The translations under genes were made by a program, and so were the position numbers. Below the pieces are notes generated by a model, which saw nothing but the letters and a program-made list of their open reading frames with translations, did no database searches and was not told the origin of the DNA. From Candidatus Cacconaster scatequi (lineage in GTDB: Bacteria; Bacteroidota; Bacteroidia; Bacteroidales; UBA932), in contig JAGHTO010000002.1 in the NCBI GenBank assembly GCA_018065305.1, forward strand, positions 1 to 43,019: a stretch of 43,019 bases of DNA. The letters are read 5' to 3'. Shown here piece after piece: positions 12,966 to 39,719 of the stretch; the first letter of the stretch is position 1, and every line of letters begins with the position of its first letter.

Positions 12966-15762
<2,797 letters not shown>

Positions 15763-24182: not shown

Positions 24183-24212
24183 TGACAATCTGTCATACTT
24201 GCCCGAATGGCA
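24183..24212 (+). promoter_or_regulatory. Chaperone-type composite element upstream of dnaK
   Basis: Perfect inverted repeat TGACA-ATC-TGTCA (24183-24195), then 12 bases, then TGGCA (24208-24212). The same layout precedes htpG (34064-34093) and grpE (39552-39522 on the minus strand). It lies about 80-110 bases before the dnaK ATG. A TTG inside the 12-base gap could be a -33 box. Confidence 0.65.
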
Positions 24213-24292
24213 TAATCTTCGATATGATTGAGGCGTCGGCCCGGAAGGACCGGCGCTTTGATTTGTAACAAATTTAAAAAGGAGATAAAATT

Positions 24293-26218
24293 ATGGGAAA
24301 AATTATCGGTATTGACCTCGGAACCACCAACTCTTGTGTGGCTGTAATGGAAGGCAATGAGCCTACGGTCATAATCAACAGCGAAGGAAAGCGCACAACC
24401 CCTTCGGTAGTGGCATTCGCGGAAGGCGGAGAGCGCAAAATCGGCGATCCCGCAAAACGTCAGGCAATCACCAACCCCTTGAAGACAATCTTCTCCATAA
24501 AGAGATTTATGGGAGAGACGTTCGACAGGGTTACCAAAGAGACTGATCGTGTTTCCTACAAAGTGGTTCGCGGCGACAACAACACCCCCAGGGTGGACAT
24601 AGACGGCAAGCTTTATTCCCCTCAGGAAATCAGCGCAATGGTTCTTCAGAAGATGAAGAAGACTGCTGAAGATTACCTCGGACAGGAGGTCCGCGAGGCT
24701 GTAATCACAGTTCCCGCATACTTCAGCGATTCGCAGCGTCAGGCTACCAAGGAGGCGGGTGAAATTGCCGGCTTGAACGTGAAACGTATCATCAACGAGC
24801 CTACTGCGGCCGCTCTCGCATACGGTCTCGACAAAAAGAACAAGGATATGAAGGTTGCTGTCTTCGACCTCGGCGGCGGTACTTTCGATATCTCCATCCT
24901 CGAACTCGGTGACGGTGTGTTTGAAGTGAAGTCAACCAACGGTGACACTCACCTCGGCGGTGACGACTTCGACCACAAAATCATCGACTGGCTGGCCGAC
25001 GAATTTGCAAAGGACAATGACGGAATGGATCTGCGCAAGGACCCTATGGCCCTCCAGCGTCTCAAGGAGGCTGCCGAGAAGGCAAAAATCGAGCTCTCCA
25101 ACCAGACCTCAAGCGAAATCAATCTTCCTTATATCACTGCCGTGGGAGGCGTTCCCAGACACCTTGTAAAGACTCTGAGCCGCGCGAAGTTCGAAGCTCT
25201 CTGCGACGACCTGATTCAGGCTACCATCGAGCCTTGCCGCAAGGCCCTCAGCGATGCCGGATATCAGACATCAGACATTGACGAAGTTCTTCTTGTGGGT
25301 GGTTCAACACGTATTCCCGCAGTTCAGGCGATTGTCGAGAAATTCTTCGGAAAGGCGCCCAACAAGGGTGTCAACCCCGACGAAGTGGTGGCTGTCGGAG
25401 CATCCATCCAGGGCGGCGTACTGGCAGGTGACGTAAAGGACGTGCTTCTTCTCGACGTGACTCCTCTCAGCCTCGGTATCGAGACTCTGGGCGGTGTGAT
25501 GACAAAACTCATAGATGCCAACACAACCATCCCTACCAGAAAGAGCGAGGTATTCTCGACTGCCGCTGACAACCAGCCTTCAGTTGAAATACACGTGCTT
25601 CAGGGAGAACGCTCGATGGCCCGCGACAACAAGACCATCGGCAATTTCCACCTTGACGGCATCACCCCCGCTCCGCGCGGCGTGCCCCAGATTGAAGTCA
25701 CCTTCGACATCGACGCAAACGGCATACTCAACGTTTCCGCAAAGGACAAGGCGACCGGCAAGGAGCAGAAGATACGTATCGAAGCCTCTTCAGGACTCAG
25801 CGATGATGAAATCAAACGCATGAGGGACGAAGCCAAGGCAAACGAAGCCGCTGACAAGGCCGAGAAGGAGCGTATCGACAAAATCAACGGTGCTGACGCT
25901 ATGATATTCCAGTCCGAAAAGAATCTGAAGGAATACGGGGACAAGATTCCCGCTGACAAGAAAGGCGCTATCGAGACAGCTCTTAATCAGCTCAAGGAGG
26001 CCCACAAGAGCCAGGACATCAACGCGATTGACAAGGCTATGGAAAGCCTGAACAATGCTTGGCACGCGGCATCCGAGGATATGGCGAAGGCTGCTCAGGC
26101 GGCTGGTGCCCAGGGTGCCAACCCAGGAGACGGATTCAATCCCGGAGCACAGCCCGGCAACAACGGCGGACAGGACGCCGGCGCCCCCGAAGATGTCGAC
26201 TTCGAAGAGGTGAAGTAG
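24293..26218 (+). CDS. dnaK: Chaperone DnaK (Hsp70)
   Basis: ATP-driven protein-folding chaperone, 641 residues, full length. Hsp70 signatures are [32 protein letters not shown] and [20 protein letters not shown]. The substrate-binding domain follows, then a Gly/Ala/Gln-rich tail ending EDVDFEEVK. Unusually for this window it has a clear Shine-Dalgarno (AAAGGAG, 11 bases before the ATG), in keeping with high expression. dnaJ and grpE are elsewhere in the window (37815-39471), so the three-part machine is split over two loci that share an upstream element. Confidence 0.98.
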
Positions 26219-26241
26219 GCTGAGACAGTCAATAATAAAAT

Positions 26242-26276
26242 CAAATCCGTGCAGCCCAATAAACTGCACGGATTTG
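26242..26276 (+). terminator. Terminator of dnaK
   Basis: A perfect 13-base-pair stem (26242-26254 with 26264-26276, left arm CAAATCCGTGCAG) and a 9-base loop begin 24 bases after the dnaK stop. The 3' side ends GATTTG, without a long T run. Confidence 0.75.
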
Positions 26277-26328
26277 TCGTATTATGACGGTTGCCGATTG
26301 TTATCTGTTAAATTCGCCTCTCTTTTGC

Positions 26329-26336
26329 TATCTTTG
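26329..26336 (+). promoter_or_regulatory. -7 box of the amidase-like gene
   Basis: TATCTTTG is a perfect TAnnTTTG, 23 bases before the ATG at 26359. No clear -33 box at the normal spacing. Confidence 0.5.
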
Positions 26337-26358
26337 CTGCACGAAGTTTACCCGAAAG

Positions 26359-29300
26359 ATGAGAAAATTCCTTCAGTTAGCTCTATGTGTGGCCATACTC
26401 GCCGCCTCTTCCACGGAATATCAGACATTTGCAGCAGGCAAAGGCGACCCCAAGACAATAAAGCTGTTCCAGACCGTTTCCGATTCGGTCACCAGCTACC
26501 TGAAAATCTCGACGACCGTCGATTCCAAAACCAGAATAGAGAGAGCCGTCCCGTCGGGAGAGAAACTGAAATTGTATTTTGACAAAAATCTGAAGGATTA
26601 TCCCTTAAGAAAGGAGGTTATCAGCTCAATACTCTCCATAATCGACGGACTGATGCCCTCTCCCTATACAAAATATGAAGGCAATGTCATCCTGTTTGCG
26701 GATGACGTCAACGTTGAACTGCTGGAAAGCCGTTTCTACTCCGGGAAGAAGTCCGACAACCTTGTCAGCGAACACCTGAAGAAAGTTGCGCAAGACAGGG
26801 AAAATCTCGTCCCCCTGATTACGAATGAGTCCAGACCATACACCATAACGGCCGGCCTCCAGAACAGGCATCTTGCGATATGGCAGAGCCACGGCAGGTT
26901 CTACGATCAGACCTCATTGATGTGGAAATGGCAGCGCAGCAGATTTTTCGAGACAGTGGAGGACCTCTTCACTCAAAGTTATGTGCTCCCCTACCTCGTC
27001 CCTATGCTGGAGAATGCCGGAGCAGTGGTATTACTCCCCAGAGAGAGGGATTTCCAGAAAAACGAAGCGATAGTGGACAATGATGCGGGAAACGGTTTCT
27101 ACAGCGAAACCGGCCCCTGGGCAAATTCGGGAAAACCGGGATTTGCCTTGCCGACGACAGCATACATCACAACCGAGAACCCATTCAATATGGGCCTGGC
27201 CCGTATGTGCAGCACCTCCGAAACGGAGACCGCATCCGTAAGATGGACTCCGGATATCCCCGAAGCCGGAAGATACGGAGTATATGTGTCATACCAGACC
27301 GTGTCCAACAGCGCCCCAGATGCCAGATACACAGTTTTCCACAAAGGAGGTCGCACCACTTTCAAAATCAATCAGCAGATGGGCGGCGGGACCTGGATTT
27401 TTCTGGGATATTTCGATTTTGACAAAGGAGTGTCCCCCGACCAGTATGTCCTTCTGACCAACGAATCCGCACAACCTGGCACGATAGTCAGCGCGGACGC
27501 AATCAGATTCGGCGGCGGAATGGGAAACATCGCCCGACGTCCCGACAAACCGGCATACAGGGTTGAACCGGAAGTTTCAGGCGATCCCCGTTTCGCGGAA
27601 GGGGCGAGATACTATCTTCAATGGGCCGGATTCGTGGACTCCGTCTATACACATACCGAGGGTGAAAGCGACTATCGCGACGACATCTGGGCGAGATGCC
27701 ATTGGGTGAACGCTCTCACCGGAGGCTCCTACGTCAACCCGTCCGCAGACGGATACAACATCCCTCTCGACCTGTGCCTTGGCCTCCACAGCGATGCGGG
27801 ATTTTCTCAGACCGATTCCATCGTCGGGACTCTGGCCATCTATACACCCAAATCCGCTGACGACAGAAAAGAGTTCCTCAACGGAGAAAGCCGCATATCG
27901 AGCCGCGAATTCGCCGACATAGTACAGACCTCCGTCGTAAACGATATCCGGGCCCAATACGAACCGCTATGGAGCCGTCGCGAACTCTGGAGCCGCAACT
28001 ATGCCGAATCCAGAGAGCCGGAGATTCCCTCCCTGCTGCTGGAGATGCTCTCGCATCAGAATCTGGCCGATATGCGTTACGGAATTGACCCCTCATTCCA
28101 ATTCACCGTTTCACGGGCAATCTACAAGGGAATCCTGAAATTCCTCTCCTATCTGAATGGGTTCGACTCTGTCGTGCAGCCTCTGCCGATACGGAACATC
28201 TCTTCAGAACTTGAAAGGAAGAATGACAAACTTGTGGCAAAGCTTGAATGGAAACCCGCACTGGATTCCCTGGAGCAGGGAGCGGTGCCCGACAGCTACG
28301 TTCTTTACACCAGGATTGACGGCAAGGCTTTTGACGGGGGAATGATGACCAATGACTGTTCCGCCATAATACCTCTGGAACTCGGACATATCTACAGTTT
28401 CAGAGTGACGGCCGTCAATGCCGGCGGCGAAAGTTTCCCCAGCGAAACCATATCGGTGGGCGCCGTCTCCTCATCTGCACCGACAGCGCTGATTGTCAAC
28501 AATTTCGACCGTGTTTCCGCACCTACGTCCTTTGCCTCCCCGGATTCGACAATCGGAGGATTTGCCGACAACCTGGACTCCGGAGTCCCTTATATGAGAA
28601 ATGTCGCATACGTCGGGGCGCAACACGATTTCAGACGGAGTTCAATATGGCTCAATGATGACAATCCCGGGTTTGGGGCGTCCGACTCGAATTATGAGAC
28701 GATGCTGGTTGCTGGCAATACGTTCGATTACCCTTTCGTACACGGCAAGGCATTGATGGCGGCAGGATACAGTTTCGTATCCCAAAGCAGGGAGGCTTTA
28801 TGCGAAAATGAAATCCCCGCTTCAAAATACGAAATGCTCGATCTGATATGCGGAAAACAGAAGACGACGGTTGTCGGCAGGGAAGGTTCCAATCCCGCCA
28901 AATACACAGTCTTCACCCCGGAGATTCAGGAAAAAATAGCCAAATATGCAACCTCCGGTGGAAACATTCTGATATCAGGCTCCTACGTCGCTTCTGACAA
29001 CGGCATCCAGTCCGCTGTCAAGTTCGCGTACAGAGTTCTTAAATATAAGACACTTACGGGAAATGCTTCCGCTACCGGCATTGCGAAAGGGACGCAGAAT
29101 CCTCTCGGATTCAAATTCAGCGGAAAACTGAGTTTCAGGACAAGGCCCAATGAAAAGTGCTATTCCGTGGAATCGCCGGATGCTCTGACTCCCGTAGGAA
29201 AGAGCGCGCACGTCATACTCCGGTATGATGATTCCAACACGGCGGCAGGTATAGCATATAATGGTGTCGATTACAAGGCTGTTACATTCGGATTTCCGAT

Positions 29301-29373
29301 AGAAGTTCTTGATGACGAAAGCCAGATTGTGGAGGTGATGAAGCAGGTAACCGGATTTTTCGGTAAAAAGTAG
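26359..29373 (+). CDS. Large secreted amidase_3-like protein with golvesin/xanthan-lyase-like insert
   Basis: A 1004-residue exported protein; the ATG at 26359 opens the signal peptide (KFLQLALCVAILAASS). It looks like an N-acetylmuramoyl-L-alanine amidase split in two. The first half has His178 in AIWQSHGRFYD and Glu201 in ETVEDLFTQSYVLPYLVP; the second has His477 in LGLHSDAGF and Glu562 in SLLLEMLSHQN, the expected H-E-H-E zinc pattern. Between them, about residues 250-400, is a beta-rich golvesin C-terminal / xanthan-lyase-like domain (SVRWTPDIPEAGRYGVYVSY, FDFDKG). A fibronectin III-like segment follows near 620-735, then an alpha/beta domain of unknown role (TALIVNNFDRVSAP). Homologues are often labelled xanthan lyase; I infer a peptidoglycan or polysaccharide target. 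Confidence 0.75.
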   Translation: MRKFLQLALCVAILAASSTEYQTFAAGKGDPKTIKLFQTVSDSVTSYLKISTTVDSKTRIERAVPSGEKLKLYFDKNLKDYPLRKEVISSILSIIDGLMPSPYTKYEGNVILFADDVNVELLESRFYSGKKSDNLVSEHLKKVAQDRENLVPLITNESRPYTITAGLQNRHLAIWQSHGRFYDQTSLMWKWQRSRFFETVEDLFTQSYVLPYLVPMLENAGAVVLLPRERDFQKNEAIVDNDAGNGFYSETGPWANSGKPGFALPTTAYITTENPFNMGLARMCSTSETETASVRWTPDIPEAGRYGVYVSYQTVSNSAPDARYTVFHKGGRTTFKINQQMGGGTWIFLGYFDFDKGVSPDQYVLLTNESAQPGTIVSADAIRFGGGMGNIARRPDKPAYRVEPEVSGDPRFAEGARYYLQWAGFVDSVYTHTEGESDYRDDIWARCHWVNALTGGSYVNPSADGYNIPLDLCLGLHSDAGFSQTDSIVGTLAIYTPKSADDRKEFLNGESRISSREFADIVQTSVVNDIRAQYEPLWSRRELWSRNYAESREPEIPSLLLEMLSHQNLADMRYGIDPSFQFTVSRAIYKGILKFLSYLNGFDSVVQPLPIRNISSELERKNDKLVAKLEWKPALDSLEQGAVPDSYVLYTRIDGKAFDGGMMTNDCSAIIPLELGHIYSFRVTAVNAGGESFPSETISVGAVSSSAPTALIVNNFDRVSAPTSFASPDSTIGGFADNLDSGVPYMRNVAYVGAQHDFRRSSIWLNDDNPGFGASDSNYETMLVAGNTFDYPFVHGKALMAAGYSFVSQSREALCENEIPASKYEMLDLICGKQKTTVVGREGSNPAKYTVFTPEIQEKIAKYATSGGNILISGSYVASDNGIQSAVKFAYRVLKYKTLTGNASATGIAKGTQNPLGFKFSGKLSFRTRPNEKCYSVESPDALTPVGKSAHVILRYDDSNTAAGIAYNGVDYKAVTFGFPIEVLDDESQIVEVMKQVTGFFGKK

Positions 29374-29390
29374 TCATACACGCGATTTTT

Positions 29391-29420
29391 TTTGTTTTAA
29401 TAAAAATATGTCTATATTTG
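29391..29420 (+). promoter_or_regulatory. Promoter of tRNA-Val
   Basis: TTTG (29391-29394), 18 bases, then TATATTTG (29413-29420). It ends 16 bases before the tRNA 5' end. Confidence 0.65.
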
Positions 29421-29436
29421 CAGTCCCAAATAAAAC

Positions 29437-29511
29437 GGGAGCATAGCTCAGCTGGTTCAGAGCACCTGCCTTACAAGCAGGGGGTCATAGGTTCGAATCC
29501 TATTACTCCCA
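29437..29511 (+). tRNA. tRNA-Val (anticodon TAC)
   Basis: A full cloverleaf of 75 bases. The D stem is GCTC/GAGC, the anticodon stem CCTGC/GCAGG with loop CTTACAA, and the T arm ATAGG-TTCGAAT-CCTAT. The acceptor GGGAGCA pairs with TACTCCC except for one C-A mismatch at the sixth pair. The discriminator is A and the genome continues CC but not CCA. Confidence 0.93.
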
Positions 29512-29517
29512 CCGAAG

Positions 29518-29557
29518 AAACTCCGGAATGGACTAGATGTCAGTTCGGAGTTTTTTT
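29518..29557 (+). terminator. Terminator between tRNA-Val and cstA
   Basis: AAACTCCG (29518-29525) pairs with CGGAGTTT (29546-29553), followed by a run of T. It ends only 23 bases before the cstA start. Confidence 0.7.
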
Positions 29558-29580
29558 ATTGGGGAAAAGTTCAATACTAT

Positions 29581-31074
29581 ATGTTTTCATTTCTGATCAG
29601 CCTTGTCGCACTTATCGTCGGCTACATCTTCTATGGCCGTCTGGTAGAGAAGTGTTTCGTTCCCGATTCATCCAATCCCACCCCCGCCATAATCAAAAAA
29701 GATGGTGTGGACTATGTTCCGATGCCTGCCTGGAAGGTATTTATGATACAGTTCCTCAACATCGCAGGAACAGGGCCTGTCTTCGGAGCCATAATGGGGG
29801 CCAAATTCGGGCCAGCCTGTTACCTTTGGATTGTTCTGGGAAGTATTTTTGCGGGAGGTGTCCACGATTATCTGAGCGGGATGCTTTCCATCCGCCACAA
29901 AGGTGCGGTAGCTCCCGACATCGTAGGCCACTATCTGGGCCGGGGATCAAAGACAACGATGCTTGTCTTCTCAATGGTACTTCTTCTGCTTGTCGGAGTG
30001 GTGTTCGTTTACAGCCCCGCTCTTATTCTCGGGGACATCGCCGGTTTCATGGAGACGGAGAAACTTTCCATAATGAGTTGGGTGCTGATCATTTTCCTTT
30101 ACTACATTTTTGCGACAATCCTCCCGATAGACAAACTGATCGGACGTCTTTACCCCATATTTGCATTCGCCCTGCTGTTTATGGCCGCAAGCCTGTGCGT
30201 CTGCCTTGTCATAAAATGGCCCTCAATCCCGGAATTCTGGGACGGGCTGCAGAACAGAGGCCCCTCTGTCGGGCTTGAGGGCCAGCCGATATATCCCTGC
30301 CTCTTCATAACCGTTGCGTGCGGAGCTATCAGCGGATTCCACTCCACCCAAAGTCCCTTGATGGCACGTTGCCTTCAGAATGAAAAACAAGGGCGTCCGG
30401 TATTCTACGGAGCAATGATAACGGAAGGCGTTGTCGCCCTTATCTGGGCAGCCGTTTCCTCATATTTCTTCTTTGACGGAGGAATGCAGGCTCTGGGTGC
30501 CGATTCCAGTCAGGCTCCGGAAGTCGTTTCATCGGTAGCAAAAGGATGGCTCGGTGTCGTCGGAGGTCTTCTGGCCATAATCGGTGTGGTGGTAGCCCCC
30601 ATCACCAGCGGAGACACGGCCTTCCGCTGCGCCCGACTGATTATTGCAGATTTCATTCATCTTGACCAGAAAAGCAAGAGAAACAGGTTCATTATTGCCA
30701 TCCCGCTGTTTGCCGCAGCCTCACTGCTTCTATGGTACAACATTGCTGACGAGCAGGGATTCAATACGATATGGCGATATTTCGGCCTTGCCAACCAGGC
30801 CCTGGCCGCTTTCGTATTATGGACGATGACCGCATTCCTGAGCAGGAAAAGCCCACGCAGGCTATATTATATGATAACACTCATCCCCGCCTGCTTCATG
30901 ACTTCGGTTTGCGCGACATACATCTGTGTCGACAAATGGGGACTGAACCTCTCCAACGAACTGATACCGCGTGTCGGAATAGGAATTTTCATCACCTTCT
31001 TCATCCTCTACTATTTTGCAAGAAGTGGAGGTCGTCCGTCATATGCCCCGGAACAGAAGGAAAATCGCCGTTAA
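29581..31074 (+). CDS. cstA: Carbon starvation protein CstA family transporter (short form)
   Basis: Inner-membrane protein of 497 residues with about 12-14 hydrophobic helices. CstA landmarks include QFLNIAGTGPVFGAIMGAKFG, GGVHDYLSGMLSIRHKG and TVACGAISGFHSTQSPLMA. Members take up peptides or pyruvate in other bacteria; the short Bacteroidota form is not characterised as far as I know. The gene starts just after the tRNA-Val terminator with no promoter box between. It overlaps the 3' end of the convergent VanZ-like gene by 36 bases. Confidence 0.92.
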   Translation: MFSFLISLVALIVGYIFYGRLVEKCFVPDSSNPTPAIIKKDGVDYVPMPAWKVFMIQFLNIAGTGPVFGAIMGAKFGPACYLWIVLGSIFAGGVHDYLSGMLSIRHKGAVAPDIVGHYLGRGSKTTMLVFSMVLLLLVGVVFVYSPALILGDIAGFMETEKLSIMSWVLIIFLYYIFATILPIDKLIGRLYPIFAFALLFMAASLCVCLVIKWPSIPEFWDGLQNRGPSVGLEGQPIYPCLFITVACGAISGFHSTQSPLMARCLQNEKQGRPVFYGAMITEGVVALIWAAVSSYFFFDGGMQALGADSSQAPEVVSSVAKGWLGVVGGLLAIIGVVVAPITSGDTAFRCARLIIADFIHLDQKSKRNRFIIAIPLFAAASLLLWYNIADEQGFNTIWRYFGLANQALAAFVLWTMTAFLSRKSPRRLYYMITLIPACFMTSVCATYICVDKWGLNLSNELIPRVGIGIFITFFILYYFARSGGRPSYAPEQKENRR

Positions 31075-31410
31075 CAGACCTCCGGTCGCAATTGCCGCCA
31101 TATTGGCGACAAGATCCCATATATCAGTCATGCGGTAGTCTGTCAGAAAACTTTGGAGCAGCTCGATTGAGGTGGCGACCACTATGCCGGCAATAAGGGA
31201 AAATGAGAGAATCCGCCAGGGTTTCTTCCGGGAAAACGCCAACGTGCAGAATATGGGAAACGGCAGAAACATCCCGAAATGAGCGCACTTGTCAATCGGT
31301 ATACCCCACAGAAATTTCGGCAGTTCCTCGTCAACCGATATACGGCCGAAACAAAGATAAATCACCGTCAGGAAATAGAGGACAAAAACAATGCAACTGA
31401 ACTTTTTCAT
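31039..31410 (-). CDS. VanZ-like small membrane protein
   Basis: A 123-residue membrane protein with about four helices: CIVFVLYFLTVIYLCFG, CAHFGMFLPFPIFCTLAF, ILSFSLIAGIVVATSIELLQ and a C-terminal ATGGLLTAIFLLF. The VanZ-family core is KCAHFGMF with ATSIELLQSFLTDYRMTDIWDLVANMAA. The family includes the teicoplanin-resistance accessory protein VanZ, but most members have no known role, and nothing here points to resistance. The start overlaps the HAD gene stop (ATGA), so the two are coupled. Confidence 0.85.
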   Translation of the reverse strand: MKKFSCIVFVLYFLTVIYLCFGRISVDEELPKFLWGIPIDKCAHFGMFLPFPIFCTLAFSRKKPWRILSFSLIAGIVVATSIELLQSFLTDYRMTDIWDLVANMAAIATGGLLTAIFLLFRGI

Positions 31411-32264
31411 ATCCGGCTCTTTCTATTGGAACGCTGAAGCCGGAAGAAATCGTATTCCGCCCTTATCTTGCCGATAACAGTCGTCACAACGTTGTATATC
31501 TCCCCTCCCTCACGGTAATCGGCCTTGCAGGCAAAATTCACGCGGTCCTGCTTCAACAACTTGCGGGCCTGCTCCTCCTTGTCAGCCCTTTCAGGATTGA
31601 ACACGGCAATGGAGTTACCCCCGAACATCTTGACAATCTTCATACAGGGCACATCCGTCTCCCCGTCCCCGAAATATATCATATGGGAAAACGGTATCGG
31701 TTTGCTGTCATCCTCAAGGCTCGCGTTGACCTGGACATTATCCGCGATGTCCATTATTCCCTTGGAAATCTTGAACAGGAACTGGGTCTTTCCCGTATAA
31801 TCCACTGCGACTGCCGGCCAAACCGCCTTCTTGTCCTCTCCGTACCAGAAAGAACAGGCGAAAATCTTCTTGAATTCACCGGCAATGGGAGTCCCCTCGA
31901 TCAGTTCCGTCTGCCCGGAAGAGTTGATGTAGTGCTCAATCTCGACTCCGTGTTCCTTCCCATATCTGTTGATCAGGGAAAACCACTCCATAACACCCTC
32001 AAAAAGCGGAATGTGTTTTCCGAACGAGACGAAAGACTCTCTGGTCAGATCTATATTGTTCTTTCTGGCCTCATCAATCATCAGTTTCATATATGCAAGG
32101 ATTCCGCTCACCTCCTGACCTCCGGGGGCCTTGTTGCTGGCCTCCCAAAACTCCGCCGGAGTCTTCCCGATAGCCTGAATGAATCCGAATTCCTGCATGT
32201 TGCCGGGAGACAAAGTCCCGTCAAAATCATAAATCAGCGCAATTGTAGGTTTGTCCTTAATCAT
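31407..32264 (-). CDS. HAD-superfamily phosphatase
   Basis: Cytosolic haloacid-dehalogenase-type hydrolase of 285 residues. The ATG at 32264 is chosen because motif I follows at once: Asp13 and Asp15 in IYDFDGTLSPGN. Motif II is probably HYINSSGQTELIEG, and motif IV is IYFGDGETDVPCMKIV. The cap looks like the phosphoserine-phosphatase-like group. Substrate unknown. First gene of a two-gene operon with the VanZ-like protein; its leader of about 80 bases contains an 8-base-pair hairpin (32302-32323). Confidence 0.85.
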   Translation of the reverse strand: MIKDKPTIALIYDFDGTLSPGNMQEFGFIQAIGKTPAEFWEASNKAPGGQEVSGILAYMKLMIDEARKNNIDLTRESFVSFGKHIPLFEGVMEWFSLINRYGKEHGVEIEHYINSSGQTELIEGTPIAGEFKKIFACSFWYGEDKKAVWPAVAVDYTGKTQFLFKISKGIMDIADNVQVNASLEDDSKPIPFSHMIYFGDGETDVPCMKIVKMFGGNSIAVFNPERADKEEQARKLLKQDRVNFACKADYREGGEIYNVVTTVIGKIRAEYDFFRLQRSNRKSRI

Positions 32265-32301
32265 AACTTCACCCCTTATTTCGGGATTTTGGCACAATAA
32301 T

Positions 32302-32323
32302 CCGGTTTTTATCCCAAAACCGG
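32302..32323 (-). promoter_or_regulatory. Leader hairpin of the HAD-VanZ operon
   Basis: CCGGTTTT (32302-32309) and AAAACCGG (32316-32323) form a perfect 8-base-pair stem with a 6-base loop, within the likely 5' leader of the minus-strand operon. Role unknown. Confidence 0.4.
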
Positions 32324-32348
32324 CCTCGTCACACCTTTTATTTCCCTG

Positions 32349-32372
32349 CAAAGATACTCAATTCTATTTTTG
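32349..32372. promoter_or_regulatory. Divergent promoters, HAD operon and acyl-CoA synthetase
   Basis: TATCTTTG on the minus strand (32349-32356) and TATTTTTG on the plus strand (32365-32372) are both perfect TAnnTTTG boxes, 8 bases apart and pointing away from each other. Their -33 regions must therefore overlap the opposite -7 region or lie beyond it. Confidence 0.6.
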
Positions 32373-32391
32373 TATATATAACCAATCTGCA

Positions 32392-34041
32392 ATGGACTAC
32401 AAAAACTTCCTGACCTACATCCAGGACGGCATCCGGAACAACTGGAACCGCGAGGCGATGACCGACATCGGAGGAGAGACAATCACATACGCCATCCTCG
32501 CCGAAAGAATCGAGAAGATACATATATTATTTGAGCGCGCAGGTATAAAACCTCAGGACAAAGTGTGCATCTACGCCAAGAATTGCGTCAACTGGGGTGT
32601 GGCTTTTCTCGGGGCCTCCACATATGAGGCGACGGCCGTCCCTCTTCTGAGCGACTTCACGCCGGAAAGTGCCTCCCATCTCACTGGTCACTCGGACAGC
32701 GTCGTCCTTTTCACGGACTCTGCACGATTCAGCAAGATGGACCTATCAAAAATGCCGAAACTCAAGATTGTTTTGGACATCAAGGACTTCAGTCCCCTTT
32801 TCAACACCCTCGGAGATGATTTCGCCAGTGCTGTCGAGAACATTGACGCCCTTTTTCTGGACAAGTTCTTCGCGTTCGGTCCGAAAGACATAAACTACCC
32901 CTGTGACAACTTTGACAAGATTGCCCTGATAAACTATACTTCCGGGACCTCAAGCGATCCCAAGGGGGTGATGCTTTCATATCGGAACGTCAGTTCCAAT
33001 ATGGAATTCGGTCATTGGGCCGTCCGCAACACACCTGAAGACTGCATTGTGTCGATGCTGCCTCTGGCCCATATGTACGGGATGATATGGGAATTCCTCT
33101 ATCAGCTGCACGGGGGAAGCCATATATTCTTCCTTGGCAAGGTCCCGTCTCCAAAAGTACTGCTGAACTCGTTTGCAAGAGTCAAGCCTTATATGGTGAT
33201 TACCGTTCCGCTGGTGATTGAGAAAATCTTCAAGAACTCGATATTTCCGGTTGTCAAGAAGCCGTATATGAAAGCGTTACTCAACATTCCCATCGTCGCG
33301 CATATCATCAAGAAACGGATAAGGGCCAAACTGATGGATGCATTCGGAGGGAACTTGCAGTATATGTTCATCGGCGGGGCAGCGATAACAAAGGAGGTGG
33401 AAGACTGGATGAAGGCTCTGAAGATGCCTTACAGCGTGGGATACGGAATGACCGAATGCGCCCCTCTGATAGGATACAGCGACTGGCGGACCTATAAAAA
33501 AGGTTCCTGCGGCAGAGTCGTGGACAGGCTGGAAATACGTGTGGATTCCGAGGATCCGGAGCATATCGTTGGAGAGCTTCAGGTTCGTGGAGACAATGTA
33601 ATGGTGGGATATTTCAAGAACGAGGAGGCGACAAAAGCAAGCTTCACGGAGGACGGATGGATGAAAACCGGGGATCTCGGCCTGATTGATGAAAACGGGA
33701 ACATCTACATCAAGGGACGTTCAAAGAATATGATTCTCTCGGCAAACGGACAGAACATCTATCCCGAGGAGATCGAAGACAAACTCAACAACCAGCCCTA
33801 TATTGTGGAATCCGTCGTAGTTGAAAGGGACAAGAAAATCGTGGCCCTCGTATATCCCGACTATGACAGAGTCTCCCAGGAATCTCTTGATGACAATGCT
33901 CTTGCCCGGCTGATGGACAGCAACAGGATAAATCTCAACCTGCTGCTCCCGAAGTACAGCCAGATTGCAAGAATCGAACTGAGGAAGGAGGAATTCGAGA
34001 AAACCCCCAAACGTTCGATAAAGAGATTCAAATACAAATAG
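32392..34041 (+). CDS. AMP-dependent long-chain acyl-CoA synthetase
   Basis: Activates fatty acids (or related acids) to acyl-CoA through an acyl-AMP intermediate. The 549-residue protein has the ANL-family core: P-loop INYTSGTSSDPKGVMLSY, the YGMTECAPLIGY motif, and GWMKTGDLGLIDENGNIYIKGRSKNMI with NGQNIYPEEIED near the end. The ATG at 32392 lies 19 bases after a -7 box; a longer in-frame reading upstream would overlap the divergent promoter and the HAD leader. Chain length preference cannot be read. Confidence 0.92.
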   Translation: MDYKNFLTYIQDGIRNNWNREAMTDIGGETITYAILAERIEKIHILFERAGIKPQDKVCIYAKNCVNWGVAFLGASTYEATAVPLLSDFTPESASHLTGHSDSVVLFTDSARFSKMDLSKMPKLKIVLDIKDFSPLFNTLGDDFASAVENIDALFLDKFFAFGPKDINYPCDNFDKIALINYTSGTSSDPKGVMLSYRNVSSNMEFGHWAVRNTPEDCIVSMLPLAHMYGMIWEFLYQLHGGSHIFFLGKVPSPKVLLNSFARVKPYMVITVPLVIEKIFKNSIFPVVKKPYMKALLNIPIVAHIIKKRIRAKLMDAFGGNLQYMFIGGAAITKEVEDWMKALKMPYSVGYGMTECAPLIGYSDWRTYKKGSCGRVVDRLEIRVDSEDPEHIVGELQVRGDNVMVGYFKNEEATKASFTEDGWMKTGDLGLIDENGNIYIKGRSKNMILSANGQNIYPEEIEDKLNNQPYIVESVVVERDKKIVALVYPDYDRVSQESLDDNALARLMDSNRINLNLLLPKYSQIARIELRKEEFEKTPKRSIKRFKYK

Positions 34042-34063
34042 GAAGCTGTCAGACCGACGAATC

Positions 34064-34093
34064 TGCCATTTTGTCGCTTTGTCCGGGATGGTA
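34064..34093 (+). promoter_or_regulatory. Chaperone-type composite element upstream of htpG
   Basis: TGCCA-TTT-TGTCG (34064-34076), then 12 bases, then TGGTA (34089-34093), the same layout as upstream of dnaK and grpE. TATCTTTT overlaps its right end and is one base off a -7 box. The element lies about 48-77 bases before the htpG ATG. Confidence 0.6.
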
Positions 34094-34140
34094 TCTTTTT
34101 TGATTTTCCCTCCCGCAGAATCTAAAAACGACAAAATATT

Positions 34141-36003
34141 ATGGCAAAAGGAAAAATTGGTGTAACAACGGAGAACATTTTCCCTGTTATCAAGGAATTC
34201 TTATACTCTGACCACGATATCTTCATCCGTGAACTTGTGGCGAACGCCGTCGATGCCACCCAGAAACTGAAGGCGCTCAGTGGCACGGGCGAAGTCAGCG
34301 GAGAACTCGGAGACCTCACCATCCACGTCGACGTGGACAAGGACAAGAAGACAATAAAGATTACCGACTGCGGTATCGGAATGACCGAAGATGAGGTTGA
34401 CAGATACATCAACCAGATTGCCTTCTCCTCCGCCGGCGAATTTCTGGACAAGTACAAGGACAAGGCGGGCAATATCATAGGTCACTTCGGACTGGGCTTC
34501 TACTCAGCTTTTATGGTATCAGAGAAGGTCACCATCGAAACCCTCTCATACAAGGAGGGTTCCGAAGCTGTCAAATGGAGCTGCAACGGAGACCCTGACT
34601 TCACAATGACGAAAAGCAAGAAGTCCACGCGAGGCACCGTCATCACCCTCCATCTTGACGGCGACAGCACCGAATTCGCCGAAGAGTCGAAGATTGGAGC
34701 CCTTCTCAACAAATACTGCAAATTCATGCCGGTTCCCATCGCAATGGGTATGCAGAAGGAGTGGAAAGACGGCAAATATGTGGACACCGACAAGGAGAAC
34801 ATAATCAACGACACTGAGCCGCTGTGGACGCGCAAACCCTCAGAGCTGAAGGACGAGAACTATCTGACCTTCTACAACAAATTGTACCCGATGCAGGAAG
34901 ACCCCCTCTTCCATATCCATCTCAACGTGGATTATCCCTTCAACCTGACTGGAATCCTCTATTTCCCAAAAATCAAGAACCAGGTCGAAATCTCGCGCAA
35001 CAAGATTCAGCTCTTCTGCAACCAGATGTTCGTGACCGACAGTGTGGAGAACATCGTGCCCGAGTTCCTGACACTTCTTCACGGAGTAATCGATTCCCCC
35101 GACATTCCGCTCAACGTCTCGCGCAGCTATCTTCAGGAAGATGCAAACGTCAAGAAAATCTCGACATACATCACGAAGAAGGTCGCCGACAGGCTTGAGG
35201 AAATTGCGAAGAACAATGCTTCCGAATTCGAGAGCAAGTGGGACAATCTGAAACTCTTCATCGAATACGGAATGATTACGGACGAGAAGTTCTGCGAGAA
35301 GGCGCTCAAGTTCGCCCTGCTCAAGAACACTGAAGGCAAATTCTTCAAGGTTGAAGATTACCGCAAGGCGATTGAGGAGAACCAGAAGGACAAGGACGGA
35401 AAGACCGTCTTCCTGTACTGCACCGATGCCACGGCACAATACAAATATGTGGAGGCGGCAAAATCCAAGGGTTATGACGTGCTTGTTTTCGACTGCCCTC
35501 TCGATGCCCATTACATAGGTCTGCTTGAGTCAAAGACAAAGGACAGTATCTTCAAGAGAGTGGATTCGGATGCGGCGGACAGGCTGATTGCCAAGGAAGA
35601 GGCGTCCAAATACGAAATCTCCGAGGAGGACTCCAAGAAAGTGACTTCAGTGTTTGAAGAGATTCTTCCCAAGGAGTACAAATACACCGTAACTGTCGAG
35701 AATCTCGGTCAGAGCGAGGCTCCGGTAGTCATCACGCAGAGTGAGTTTATGCGCCGATACCGCGATATGGCGGCCCTCGGAGGCGGGATGAATTTCTATG
35801 GGGAGATGCCTGAGTCCTACAACATCACCGTCAATGCGCAAAGTCCGATAATCGCAAAGATTGCGGGTGATGCCGGAATCGCTTCCGTAACTGCCGACAA
35901 CAAACTTCTCAAACAGGTGGTGGATCTGGCCCTGCTCTCCAACAATATGCTGAAAGGCAAGGCCCTCGCCGACTTCATCAAACGAAGCGAAGAACTGCTG
36001 TAG
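34141..36003 (+). CDS. htpG: Chaperone HtpG (Hsp90)
   Basis: ATP-dependent chaperone of 620 residues, typical for bacterial Hsp90. The GHKL ATP site is intact: ELVANAVDATQKL, ITDCGIGMTEDEV and GHFGLGFYSAFMVSEKV. The middle domain contains YPFNLTGILYFPKI and DIPLNVSRSYLQED. It lacks a signal peptide. It has its own promoter with the shared chaperone element and converges on the grpE-dnaJ-M23 operon. Confidence 0.97.
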   Translation: MAKGKIGVTTENIFPVIKEFLYSDHDIFIRELVANAVDATQKLKALSGTGEVSGELGDLTIHVDVDKDKKTIKITDCGIGMTEDEVDRYINQIAFSSAGEFLDKYKDKAGNIIGHFGLGFYSAFMVSEKVTIETLSYKEGSEAVKWSCNGDPDFTMTKSKKSTRGTVITLHLDGDSTEFAEESKIGALLNKYCKFMPVPIAMGMQKEWKDGKYVDTDKENIINDTEPLWTRKPSELKDENYLTFYNKLYPMQEDPLFHIHLNVDYPFNLTGILYFPKIKNQVEISRNKIQLFCNQMFVTDSVENIVPEFLTLLHGVIDSPDIPLNVSRSYLQEDANVKKISTYITKKVADRLEEIAKNNASEFESKWDNLKLFIEYGMITDEKFCEKALKFALLKNTEGKFFKVEDYRKAIEENQKDKDGKTVFLYCTDATAQYKYVEAAKSKGYDVLVFDCPLDAHYIGLLESKTKDSIFKRVDSDAADRLIAKEEASKYEISEEDSKKVTSVFEEILPKEYKYTVTVENLGQSEAPVVITQSEFMRRYRDMAALGGGMNFYGEMPESYNITVNAQSPIIAKIAGDAGIASVTADNKLLKQVVDLALLSNNMLKGKALADFIKRSEELL

Positions 36004-36189
36004 CGCATTGGGTATATGCTGGCAGGCAACTTTGGCTCCCGAAGAGGGAGGGGACCCACCCGACAATACGGGGCGCTGCCCCGAAACCCCGCCGCTTCGG
36101 GCATCTATTCCGCAGGCTTACCCTGCCAGCCCTCCGCTAACGCCTGATGGCGTTTCGATTAAGCGCGGCCGCGAACAAAGAAAGCGGAA
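36004..36189. repeat. GC-rich structured intergenic element
   Basis: 186 bases between the convergent htpG and M23 genes. It contains GCTGGCAGG (36018-36026) complementary to CCTGCCAGC (36122-36130), enclosing a small hairpin CGGGGC-gct-GCCCCG (36069-36083). A second hairpin AACGCC-tgat-GGCGTT follows (36139-36154), then a CCGC...GCGG pair. Base content and hairpin density differ from flanking intergenic DNA. It may be a dispersed repeat, a structured RNA or a complex terminator. Confidence 0.45.
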
Positions 36190-37812
36190 TTACTGCGACA
36201 ATGTTCCGAAAAATTCGGAGACATTGCCGCAGTTGTCTTTTGCGGTTATTGTCAATCTGTGCTTTCCGCGGGAGATTGAACCGCGGTCGAGAATGGTGAG
36301 AACGCCTCTGTAGAACTTGAAAAGATGCCACTGTCCGTCTATCTCCAGAGAGACTTCGGAGACTCCGCTGCAGTCATCCTTGATTGTATAATTGCCACCC
36401 CTTCCTGAACTTATCTGCGGAGCCTGCGTGTCCACGGCCATGCAATACCGCCCGGGTCCGACCTTCGACCCGGCCCAGGAGAGACGTCCGACAGGTGACA
36501 CCGAGGCCAGAAAAGTCTTTGAAGCAAGACTGTCAGGCACGGAGGACTCTATCTCCAGAATCCCTCCCTTCATAAGCGCGGTACCGGGAGAAGAAATCTC
36601 CCACACATCGGAACAGGCCTCCTCAATTCTGTCGCGGGGAGTTATTTTCCTGAAAGAGAAAACGGCATTGTCGCAAAGAGCTCCCGACGGCAGGATATAT
36701 GTCATTCCCTCTTCTCGGACAATATTCGGAGCATACCACACGAACTCCCTTCTGATCGCCGTGGTGTCCATTGTGGGGAGAGGTTCCTTCGAATCTTCCC
36801 TGCGTACCTTGAAAGTCAGGGAGGAACTGTTGCCGCAGATATCCTTCACCTCAATCCTCAACTGATGGATGTCATAATCTTCCAACAGAATGATTCCGCC
36901 ATCCTCCACATCGGACTTGCACTGAAGCAAATTGCCCGGATCCATCCGGCTCTTGACCAGGTCAGGCCCTGAAACCCCCTGCTGGACAAGGCTCTTGATA
37001 TAGGGCCCTTCGGTGTACGACACGTCTCCTACGGTAAAGTTGAAAATTGTGCGTCCGTCCAGAATGACCTTGTAGTTCTCTATGGCCAGTTTCCCCGTCG
37101 TTCCGTTCTGAGTGTCGTATGCATCTATGGCTACGTAACTCTTATGAGGGAGAGATACGACGGATTTGTACCTTTCAGGATTTCTTATCGACGATATCTG
37201 TTTTGCAGAAGGCACCGCGGTCGAATCCAGACCATAGAAGGCAACTCTTCTGAACACAGGGGACATATTGTCCTCCGGGGAATAATACCCCATAGCGATG
37301 TAGTTCAGCGGGAGATCTTTCTCTGTATCCCTGACTTCCATATGGAGATGAGGACCGGCGGATGCACCGGTATTCCCCACCCTGCCGAAGACTTCTCCCT
37401 GCTTCAAGGGAAATTCGTCCGGCTCAAGCAAAAAATTTACAATGAAACTCTTCTGCGAATACTGTTCCTCCTTCACCCTTGCCGCAATGTCACTCCTGAA
37501 AGAGAGCATATGCCCATAAACGGAATATGTACCGTCCGGATGATTGATATAGACGGCATTCCCATATCCGGTGGGAGATACGCTTATTCTGGAGACATAT
37601 CCGCTTTTGATTGCGTGTATCGGGTCGCCTACTTTTCCTCCTACCCTCCAGTCAAGCCCCTGATGGAAATGATTGTGTCTCAATTCACCGTAATTGCCCG
37701 CAAATGACATCGGCAGGTCGATGGGCTTTATAGGTTTTTCCTGAGCAGGCAAGTCCTGACAGAGAAAAAGGGCGGCCATAACGGCAACGCCCCGGAGGAT
37801 GTATCTTTTCAT
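36190..37812 (-). CDS. Secreted M23-family metallopeptidase
   Basis: Probable peptidoglycan endopeptidase, 540 residues. The ATG at 37812 opens a signal peptide (ILRGVAVMAALFLCQDLPAQ). The LytM domain (about 35-165) is intact: His50/Asp54 in HNHFHQGLDW and His155/His157 in SAGPHLHMEV. About 375 further residues follow, with beta-rich segments (for example IRVEDG-type repeats such as LRIEVKDICGNSSSL and LTITAKDNCGNVSEF) that look like Ig-like or sandwich domains. The gene starts 2 bases after the dnaJ stop, so a cell-wall hydrolase is transcribed together with the Hsp70 co-chaperones. Confidence 0.9.
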   Translation of the reverse strand: MKRYILRGVAVMAALFLCQDLPAQEKPIKPIDLPMSFAGNYGELRHNHFHQGLDWRVGGKVGDPIHAIKSGYVSRISVSPTGYGNAVYINHPDGTYSVYGHMLSFRSDIAARVKEEQYSQKSFIVNFLLEPDEFPLKQGEVFGRVGNTGASAGPHLHMEVRDTEKDLPLNYIAMGYYSPEDNMSPVFRRVAFYGLDSTAVPSAKQISSIRNPERYKSVVSLPHKSYVAIDAYDTQNGTTGKLAIENYKVILDGRTIFNFTVGDVSYTEGPYIKSLVQQGVSGPDLVKSRMDPGNLLQCKSDVEDGGIILLEDYDIHQLRIEVKDICGNSSSLTFKVRREDSKEPLPTMDTTAIRREFVWYAPNIVREEGMTYILPSGALCDNAVFSFRKITPRDRIEEACSDVWEISSPGTALMKGGILEIESSVPDSLASKTFLASVSPVGRLSWAGSKVGPGRYCMAVDTQAPQISSGRGGNYTIKDDCSGVSEVSLEIDGQWHLFKFYRGVLTILDRGSISRGKHRLTITAKDNCGNVSEFFGTLSQ

Positions 37813-37814
37813 AT

Positions 37815-38978
37815 TCAACTGAACATTTTTCTAATCCGTTCAAAGAAATTCCGGTCCTCCTTCTCAGGAGCGGGAGCAAATGATGGAGAATTTTTGAACT
37901 TCTCGAAGAGAGCCCTCTCCTCCTTGTCCAGTTTCTTTGGAATCCATACTTGGACATAGACCAAAAGGTCACCTGACGTATATCCGTTCACGTCCATTAT
38001 ACCCTTTCCACGGATTCTGAGTACCTTGCCAGGCTGTGTGCCCGGCTCTATCTTGATTTTCAACTTGCCGTCGACGGAAGGAATCTCCGCAGTGCATCCC
38101 TGTATGGCATCCGGTACAGATATATACAATGTGTAGATAAGGTCGTTGCCGTCACGCTGGAGCAAAGCATCCTCCTCCTCTTCAATCACCACCAGAAGAT
38201 TTCCGTTGACGCCTCCGCTCTTTGCCGCATTGCCCTTGCCCTGTATGGTGAGCTGCATTCCTGACTGAACTCCTGCTGGAATCTTGAAAGTAATCTCCTC
38301 GGCCTGCTTCACAAGTCCGCTTCCGCTGCACTTTTTGCAGGGATTCGTTATTTTCTTCCCTTCTCCGCCGCAATAGGGACAGGGAGAGGAGGTCTGCATC
38401 TGGCCGAGAATCGTCTGGGTCACCTTGGTAACCATTCCCGTGCCGTGACAGTGGTCACAGGTTTTGATATCGGCTGAACTGACAGCGCCTTTCCCGTTGC
38501 AGTCGGGGCACTGGACAAGTTTGTTTATCTTAACTGTCTTCTCGACTCCGTGCGCTATCTCCGCAAGATTGAGCTTGACCTTTATGCGGATATCACTTCC
38601 TCTGGGTACGCGGCGCTGGGAGCGCCCGCCGCCGAATCCACCGAACCCGCTGAAGCCGCCGAATCCACCGAACCCGCCTCCGAAGATATCCCCGAACTGC
38701 GAGAATATGTCCTCCATTGAGAATCCGCCGGCATTGAATCCTCCCGCACCTCCCATACCTGCGTGGCCGAACTGGTCATAACGCGCCTTCTTCTGAGGGT
38801 CGGACAGGACATCATATGCCTCGGCGGCCTCCTTGAATTTCTCTTCGGCAACCTTGTCACCGGGATTCTTGTCCGGGTGGTACTGGATAGCCTTCTTGCG
38901 GTAGGCCTTCTTTATCTCGTCGGCACTGGCATTCTTGTCCACGCCAAGCACCTCGTAATAATCTCTTTTCTCTGCCAT
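37815..38978 (-). CDS. dnaJ: Co-chaperone DnaJ (Hsp40)
   Basis: Stimulates DnaK ATPase and delivers unfolded substrates. The 387-residue type I protein has a J domain with HPD ([10 protein letters not shown]) and a Gly/Phe-rich linker ([16 protein letters not shown]). Four CxxCxGxG zinc repeats follow ([32 protein letters not shown]), then the C-terminal substrate-binding domain. The ATG at 38978 ([13 protein letters not shown]) is preferred to a GTG seven codons upstream. It follows grpE by 10 bases. Confidence 0.97.
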
Positions 38979-38988
38979 AACTGTTTTT

Positions 38989-39471
38989 CTATACGCCAAC
39001 CACTACTTTGGCAAATCGGATTACGTTGCCCTTGAGGGTGTAGCCCTCCTGAGTGACATCGATGACCCTGTTCTTCTGAGCCTCGTCCTGCACGGGAATC
39101 TGTGCGACCGCCTCGTGAAGATCCGTATTGAACACTTCGCCCACGGCGTTGATTTTCTCGACGCCGCGTTGTGAAAGGAAACTTGACAACTTGTTCAGGA
39201 TAAGCTCCGTACCTTCTATGGCGGCAGCTTCGGCCTTGGATTCCCTAAGGACCTGAAGGGCCCTCATACAATCATCCATCACAGGCAGGAACCCGGTAAG
39301 GATATCCTTCCCTGCACTGTCAATCAGTTCCAGCCTCTCCTTTGCCTTGTTTCGGCGGAAATTGTCGAATTCCGCCATCAGGCGGACATACTGGTCCTTC
39401 TGCTGCTCCAGTTCTGCCTGCAAGTCAGCCACTTTGGGTTTGGATTGTTTATTTTTTTTATTGTCGTTCAT
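38989..39471 (-). CDS. grpE: Nucleotide exchange factor GrpE
   Basis: Releases ADP from DnaK. 160 residues: a Lys-rich N-terminus, a long coiled coil ([20 protein letters not shown]) and the GrpE C-terminal beta domain ([35 protein letters not shown]). First gene of grpE-dnaJ-M23. Transcription probably starts from the region carrying the chaperone element at 39522-39552. Confidence 0.96.
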
Positions 39472-39521
39472 ATGTCTCCGATTTTGATTTGAGTTCCGGT
39501 CGCAAAACTACTCAAAATATT

Positions 39522-39552
39522 TGCCACCCGCAAAATAATGGACATTTTGTCA
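39522..39552 (-). promoter_or_regulatory. Chaperone-type composite element upstream of grpE
   Basis: Minus strand: TGACA-AAA-TGTCC (39552-39540), 13 bases, then TGGCA (39526-39522). It matches the dnaK and htpG elements in order and almost in spacing. It sits about 50-80 bases before the grpE ATG. Confidence 0.62.
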
Positions 39553-39641: not shown

Positions 39642-39714
39642 GGCGCTATCGAATAAGGGTTCAGTTCGCGGCCCTCTCAAGGCTGAAATACGGGTTCGAA
39701 TCCCGTTAGCGCTA
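39642..39714 (+). tRNA. tRNA-Glu (anticodon CTC)
   Basis: 73 bases. The acceptor GGCGCTA pairs with TAGCGCT (first pair G-T), the anticodon stem is CGGCC/GGCTG with loop CTCTCAA, and the T arm is ACGGG-TTCGAAT-CCCGT. The D stem GAAT/GTTC has a T-G pair and the variable loop is only 4 bases, so the fold is slightly irregular. No CCA is encoded. Confidence 0.85.
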
Positions 39715-39719
39715 CACAA

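Follow-up and report, generated by a model that had tools for sequence, protein, structure and literature searches.

Chaperone genes of the Bacteroidales: predicted σ54 promoters, a phased inverted repeat and a candidate activator

We propose here that the core chaperone genes of Candidatus Cacconaster scatequi and of its relatives in the order Bacteroidales lie behind σ54 promoters, each with a site for a bacterial enhancer-binding protein (bEBP), and that one little-studied protein, P0002, is the most likely bEBP and activates these genes together; judged from sequence, we put the probability of this account at roughly three in four. The analysis starts from a stretch of 43,019 nucleotides (the window, contig C16 of a 1.9-Mb draft genome in 63 contigs that is 96% complete), in which a composite element stands before dnaK, htpG and grpE-dnaJ. 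Computation supports the promoter boxes, the site, its helical phasing, the regulon, the gene linkage and the position of P0002 as the only typical bEBP with a helix-turn-helix (HTH) domain that was found. Bacteroidota are a dominant phylum of the human gut, and to our knowledge the switching of heat-shock genes in this phylum is not well understood. The question is now narrowed to one gene and one site, with a named candidate activator, a defined DNA site and a spacing rule.

Chaperone promoters in the window and beyond

The three strings reported by the first-pass annotation were found exactly as described, before dnaK (24183-24212, with a last spacer of 12 nucleotides), htpG (34064-34093, also 12) and, on the minus strand, grpE (39552-39522, 13). 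What that annotation had missed is a second box, (T/C)G, whose G, in an alignment of four sites from this genome, is placed 12 bp downstream of the initial G of TGGYA. A G-to-G spacing of 12 bp is that of σ54 −24/−12 promoters, and TGGYA looks like the −24 box and (T/C)G like the −12 box of such a promoter. A published consensus for σ54 is TGGCAC-N5-7-TTGCT (PMC12316311). Two other views of the right-hand box, TGGCA as a third repeat unit and TGTCA-N12-TGGCA as a −35/−10 promoter of the extracytoplasmic function (ECF) type, were dropped when the constant (T/C)G below GG was seen.

In front of dnaK (Hsp70, 641 aa; 24293..26218, plus strand), the proposed upstream activator site (UAS), TGACA-ATC-TGTCA, occupies 24183..24195 and is centred 19 bp above the −24 box of the predicted σ54 promoter at 24208..24221 (−24 TGGCA, −12 TTCG, with CG at −12 itself). 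The arrangement on the same strand before htpG (Hsp90, 620 aa; 34141..36003) comprises a proposed UAS at 34064..34076 (TGCCA-TTT-TGTCG), again centred 19 bp above the −24 box, and a predicted promoter at 34089..34102 (−24 TGGTA, −12 TTTG). On the minus strand, grpE (160 aa; 38989..39471) follows a proposed UAS at 39540..39552 (TGACA-AAA-TGTCC), centred 20 bp above the −24 box, and a predicted promoter at 39513..39526 (−24 TGGCA, −12 TTTG); dnaJ, an open reading frame (ORF) listed with a TTG start (37815..38999, minus strand), overlaps grpE by 11 bp and is presumably on one transcript with it. A tRNA-Glu gene (39642-39715), divergent from grpE, is located some 90 bp away from the grpE repeat. 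The window holds 19 σ54-like strings on its two strands, and a repeat stands within 160 bp upstream of three only, the chaperone ones (19, 19 and 20 bp). The bare palindrome TGACAN3TGTCA, with at most one mismatch, occurs four times where 1.35 are expected, a number reached in 4 of 100 shuffles; by itself it is weak evidence, and the rare thing is the composite.

The order sample comprised 99 genomes carrying 98 family labels. From these, 218 chaperone upstream regions were scanned: 90 for groES (98 genomes with a match), 69 for dnaK (93 genomes), and 30 for htpG and 29 for grpE, taken from the best 30 loci of 94 and 95, respectively. Pieces found by tblastn that fell under set bit scores or began past residue 25 were excluded and duplicate upstream regions removed, and regions shorter than 150 bp, pattern-fetched loci and whole-contig loci were kept out of the −24/−12 and phasing counts. 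A loose −24/−12 string, TGG[CT]A-N7-[TC]G, was sought in the last 260 bp before each gene and compared with shuffles and with the opposite strand. It stands before 68 of 69 dnaK, 80 of 90 groES, 27 of 30 htpG and 25 of 29 grpE genes, against 1.8, 2.4, 1.4 and 0.9 in shuffles, and the promoter consensus is ttTGGCAtAAt.aTTGA for dnaK and tTTGGCAcAaAaTaTGa for groES. RpoN itself is encoded in the genome (L013), with its activator-interacting (AID), core-binding (CBD) and DNA-binding (DBD) domains.

The pattern put forward in the first-pass annotation, TGNCA-N3-TGTCN-N(11-14)-TGGYA, has six matches in the draft genome and none when reversed as a control. Four stand directly upstream of chaperone operons, namely the three of the window and groES (G000:C57:34538; L006), and two are intragenic, one at window position 14281 in uvrA and one at C44:83776 in an ORF; the earlier remark that no copy precedes other genes is thus true within the window, where the extra match sits inside uvrA. 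Across the 99 genomes, the same pattern gives 135 matches against 69 for its reversed control (32 of the latter from one genome, G041) and is only moderately specific. An extended composite, TGNCA-N3-TGNCN-N9..13-TGGCA-N7-TG, which includes the −12 box and has a looser right half-site, matches 127 times, and its reverse 7 times. Of the 127 matches, 71, spread over 60 genomes, precede grpE (53), htpG (12), groES (4) or dnaK (2) by 33-364 bp in the same orientation. The concentration at chaperone genes that the first-pass annotation had proposed to look for is borne out, and its idea of an element common to a chaperone regulon, with an alternative promoter and a probable dedicated regulator, is supported.

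Among the other 56 composites, 30 lie within an ORF of 100 aa or more on either strand and 26 do not. Further downstream genes recognised with Pfam are five Clp ATPases (four read as clpB and one as clpC), five hsp20, two zinc metallopeptidases, one each of secA, rhomboid, OsmC, glutaredoxin-domain and META-domain genes, and four that encode a thioredoxin, a thioredoxin/thioredoxin-reductase fusion or a thioredoxin-reductase-like protein. Two such targets, a clpB-like gene (L321) and a reductase gene (L296), are among the 30 ORF-covered matches; six uncovered composites have no identifiable target, and one more (L304), with no Pfam match, is possibly a grpE cut by the contig end. In total, 81 of the 127 precede dnaK, grpE, groES, htpG, Clp ATPase or hsp20 genes, and the remaining intragenic ones look like noise. 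Before the clpB-like gene of the draft genome (L009), TGGTT-N7-TG is preceded at 20 bp by a perfect TGACA-AAT-TGTCA, a site that escaped the patterns because TT ends its −24 box. The gene itself (L009:154-2238) covers model positions 150-852, starting with the first AAA+ module, and reads as a ClpB without the N-domain. A phylum sample of 178 genomes included 44 from the class Bacteroidia, the present one among them, and 134 from other classes; the class genomes carry 59 composites against 7 in the control, in 37 genomes, and 20 of the 58 from other members of the class, picked by eye and non-random, were fetched and precede grpE (13), dnaK (5), htpG (1) or none of these (1).

The inverted repeat and P0002

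The centre of the repeat TGNCA-N3-TGNCA lies 18-21 bp above the −24 box or, in most other cases, is shifted further upstream by a whole number of helical turns, and its position relative to that box has a period of 10.7 bp across about 100 bp (promoters with less than 60 bp above the −24 box were excluded). In its spacing, the repeat behaves like an activator site, with its dyad on a fixed helical face relative to the promoter. Above groES, the repeat lies in hairpin-like sequence followed by a T-run (e.g. TGTCAGAATGTCA-N-TTCTGACATTTTTTT) at L050, L052, L057, L058, L060, L064, L066, L067 and L072, as read from the sequence; in several genomes the putative activator site there may double as the terminator of the preceding operon.

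Six proteins of the draft genome match PF00158, two of them typical bEBPs by score (above 230 bits) and the others below 38 bits. P0002, encoded at L008:895-2034 on the minus strand, consists of an AAA+ domain (PF00158, residues 12-178), a lid and a Fis-type HTH_8 domain (341-376), in which 11 residues precede the AAA+ domain and a sensor domain is lacking; it is the only typical bEBP with a DNA-binding domain found in the genome. Its relatives number 111 sequences of 372-426 aa, and the 110 aligned rows keep the GAFTGA-type loop in the form GSFTGA and show a partly conserved linker segment, then a strongly conserved HTH. P0002 stays below the cut-off of every one of the 25 NCBIfam families shown (of 27), and its nearest named relatives, at up to 75% identity, are from metagenome-assembled genomes of Bacteroidales. 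The second typical bEBP, P0003 (L007:1048-2250), is a REC-AAA+ protein with no HTH match and with GSFTSA replacing the usual GAFTGA loop; its neighbours read like cmk and der.

An orthologue of P0002, defined in the order set by at least 55% identity, is present in 95 of the 99 genomes, and P0002 or a relative at no less than 54% identity in all 44 class genomes of the phylum sample; P0002 matches in 169 of the 178 phylum genomes are not an orthologue count, as the E-value cut admits other bEBPs across classes. Because the bEBP is nearly universal within the class, co-variation in the presence and absence of bEBP and site has no power there. Both genes could be placed in 93 genomes (G010 and G094, whose sole groES match is weak, are omitted). 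In 47 of them the P0002 orthologue has groES in tandem behind it at a distance below 7 kb (range 1.7-6.0 kb, median 2.2 kb); among the other 46, 41 have the two on different draft contigs and are not judgeable, and 5 have them on one contig in another arrangement. A further copy of the orthologue, upstream of groES in G089 (L332:7132-8173), matches in two separate pieces, with the frame interrupted through an assembly error or in reality.

In G001, G002 and G024, a search with P0002 yields one match only, its orthologue, and because σ54 requires a bEBP (PMC9723704), the orthologue is the only visible candidate there. These genomes carry −24/−12 strings before dnaK, grpE, groES and htpG (G002), before groES, grpE and htpG (G001, where dnaK was not recovered) and before dnaK, grpE and htpG (G024), with TGNCA half-sites visible above several of the promoters. 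A further genome, G048, also gives a single match in this search, but not an orthologue; it has σ54-like boxes before dnaK, htpG and grpE (L346-L348), and neither groES nor the bEBP was found, a joint absence that suggests an assembly gap.

Proposed mechanism, objections and alternatives

In the mechanism that we propose, each element would be an activator-dependent promoter for RNA polymerase with RpoN (σ54), and a bEBP would bind the TGNCA-N3-TGNCA inverted repeat at about −45; from linkage and elimination, we infer that this bEBP is most likely P0002. Seated on one face of the helix, P0002 would hydrolyse ATP and open the σ54 promoters of dnaK, grpE-dnaJ, groESL, htpG and clpB together upon protein damage, with heat or misfolding as the presumed trigger. 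Since P0002 lacks a sensor domain, it is probably freed from an inhibitor, and the simplest candidate for that role would be a chaperone. A bolder version, which we hold tentatively and think rather doubtful, is that the master activator of the heat shock response in Bacteroidia is a sensor-less bEBP, encoded near groESL in many genomes, that binds one-face TGNCA-N3-TGNCA sites immediately above the −24 box of the core chaperone genes and is held off by free DnaK or GroE at its conserved linker and released when unfolded proteins titrate these chaperones.

A number of observations weigh against the proposal that P0002 activates the chaperone genes through σ54 promoters and the repeat. First, 16 of 106 repeats fall off the helical grid, the phasing statistics overstate independence since orthologous promoters share ancestry, and a recognisable repeat lies within 160 bp in only 18 of 68 dnaK promoters. 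bEBP sites usually lie at about −80 to −150, and a centre near −45 is closer than usual. Second, the −24/−12 string occurs on the opposite strand in 6 dnaK, 11 groES, 5 htpG and 2 grpE regions (24 of 218), above shuffles, perhaps through TGCCA half-sites read there as TGGCA, and several −24 boxes of the draft genome are off consensus (TGGTT before the clpB-like gene, TGGTA before htpG and groES). Third, G030, G048 and G050 yielded no P0002 orthologue, with G030 and G050 searched also around groES; the composite nevertheless stands before grpE in G030 and G048 and gives no match in G050, and the lack of an orthologue in G030 and G050 is left unexplained by our proposal. G024 shows no −24/−12 string in the 531 bp around the groES start (L341). 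Fourth, linkage is partial: of 80 named bEBP loci, 54 extend 5 kb or more past the gene, and 16 of these have groES in that downstream stretch; in the draft genome, some 32 kb separate P0002 from groES, which is on the same contig but the opposite strand. Autoregulation of the bEBP gene by σ54 is unsupported, with the −24/−12 string in 9 of its 111 own upstream regions against about 4 from shuffles. Finally, outside the class the composite does not rise above noise, with 18 matches against 11 for the control across 134 genomes.

A first alternative accepts the σ54 promoters and assigns the repeat to some other protein, a repressor or an activator that is not a bEBP, with the bEBP acting from solution without a site. 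The unusual nearness of site and promoter would suit such a protein, and HTH-less activators exist here, as the REC-AAA+ protein P0003 exemplifies; however, phasing over about 100 bp suits an activator that contacts polymerase better than a blocking repressor, and the genomes with the P0002 orthologue as sole detected bEBP retain their −24/−12 strings, several with TGNCA half-sites above. We consider this alternative unlikely. Also improbable is that a P0003-type response regulator, or the other bEBPs of each genome, drive the promoters and that the link of P0002 with groESL is gene order only, P0002 possibly controlling lptE or envelope stress. Consistent with this, lptE comes directly after the bEBP gene in all eight genomes tested with Pfam (the draft genome and seven linked ones), and several bEBPs are found in many of the order's genomes; on the other hand, P0003 is without an HTH, and in G001, G002 and G024 the search with P0002 reveals no bEBP beyond its orthologue.

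Ordinary σA promoters (−33 TTTG, −7 TAnnTTTG) with an operator above −33, the picture drawn by the first-pass annotation, are a very improbable explanation. TTTG is common in these AT-rich upstream regions, and grpE of the draft genome has TTTG-N20-TAGTTTTG (39503-39534, minus strand), a σA-like string that overlaps the σ54 promoter, counts against a σ54-only view of that gene and is possibly an extra promoter. However, TAnnTTTG is no commoner than in shuffles (dnaK 6/69, htpG 4/30, grpE 2/29 and groES 9/90, against 6.4, 3.4, 1.6 and 11.1) and was not found in the stretches scanned before dnaK and htpG of the draft genome, whereas −24/−12 strings are near-universal; placement relative to a −33 region is not supported. 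Chance resemblance or functionless repeats, for which one could cite the merely mild enrichment of the bare palindrome in the window and the just twofold excess of the original pattern over its control, are already refuted by the composite counts (127 against 7 in 99 genomes, 71 of them before four gene families), the −24/−12 strings, the phasing and the class-wide counts.

Relation to known systems

The nearest precedent is Flavobacterium psychrophilum, in which transcription start site mapping placed σ54 (SM4) promoters at groESL, dnaK, grpE-dnaJ, htpG, clpB, lon and the genes of a rhomboid protease and a thioredoxin family protein; this bacterium has three PF00158 proteins, and distinct activators were thought possibly to serve distinct clusters (PMC9723704). 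Table 2 of that paper has a 'probable sigma-54-dependent transcriptional regulator' followed by LptE (THC0290_0733-0732), with groES at 0729 and groEL at 0728 (PMC9723704). A chaperone gene set behind −24/−12 promoters is thus common to both, and the regulator-LptE pair four locus tags from groES resembles the order seen here. The available parts of that account differ in reporting no upstream repeat and assigning no bEBP, the regulator being mentioned only for the SM5 promoter in front of its gene, unconnected to the chaperones (PMC9723704). Carrera-Reyna et al. 2025 found chaperone orthologous groups (COGs) enriched behind predicted σ54 promoters in Bacteroidota and state that grpE and groES of Bacteroides thetaiotaomicron are σ54-dependent; in its available parts, this in silico regulon gives neither an activator site nor a specific bEBP for these genes (PMC12316311). 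A term search of the main text of three B. thetaiotaomicron papers (PMC10994844, PMC12596196, PMC7366714), as far as available, did not find 'sigma54' or 'rpon', and among titles and the starts of abstracts, with most subscription journals outside the search, we found no report naming the repeat or its activator. To the question whether the element had already been described in Bacteroidota, which the first-pass annotation had raised, the answer is divided: σ54 control of these chaperones is already published (PMC9723704, PMC12316311), and the phased site and the assignment of an activator appear new.

The PspF-σ54 phage-shock system offers a second comparison. Like PspF, P0002 is an AAA+ and HTH protein without an N-terminal sensor domain, and it would likewise serve a stress regulon; PspF is inhibited by PspA, as P0002 probably is by an inhibitor of its own. 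P0002 is, on the other hand, below the PspF equivalog cut-off (263 bits against 443.55 for TIGR02974), its regulon is another one, and its proposed site abuts the promoter. If our proposal is true, it would be a case of an enhancer site set against its promoter with helical phasing.

The operators of the familiar heat-shock repressors were also sought in the 218 upstream regions. The best match to CIRCE (TTAGCACTC-N9-GAGTGCTAA) has 6 mismatches in 18, in keeping with the first-pass annotation, which had not recognised the element as HrcA/CIRCE; the best to HAIR has 4 mismatches and the best to CtsR, scanned on one strand only, 3. The likeness to HrcA/CIRCE, HspR/HAIR, CtsR and σ32 lies in the coordinate control of a similar chaperone set, and the difference in the positive control through σ54 proposed here. 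If true, this would be a heat-shock strategy that works by σ54 activation instead of a dedicated sigma factor or repressor, and, should the bolder version with chaperone titration hold as well, a positive, ATP-driven counterpart of HrcA and σ32 control.

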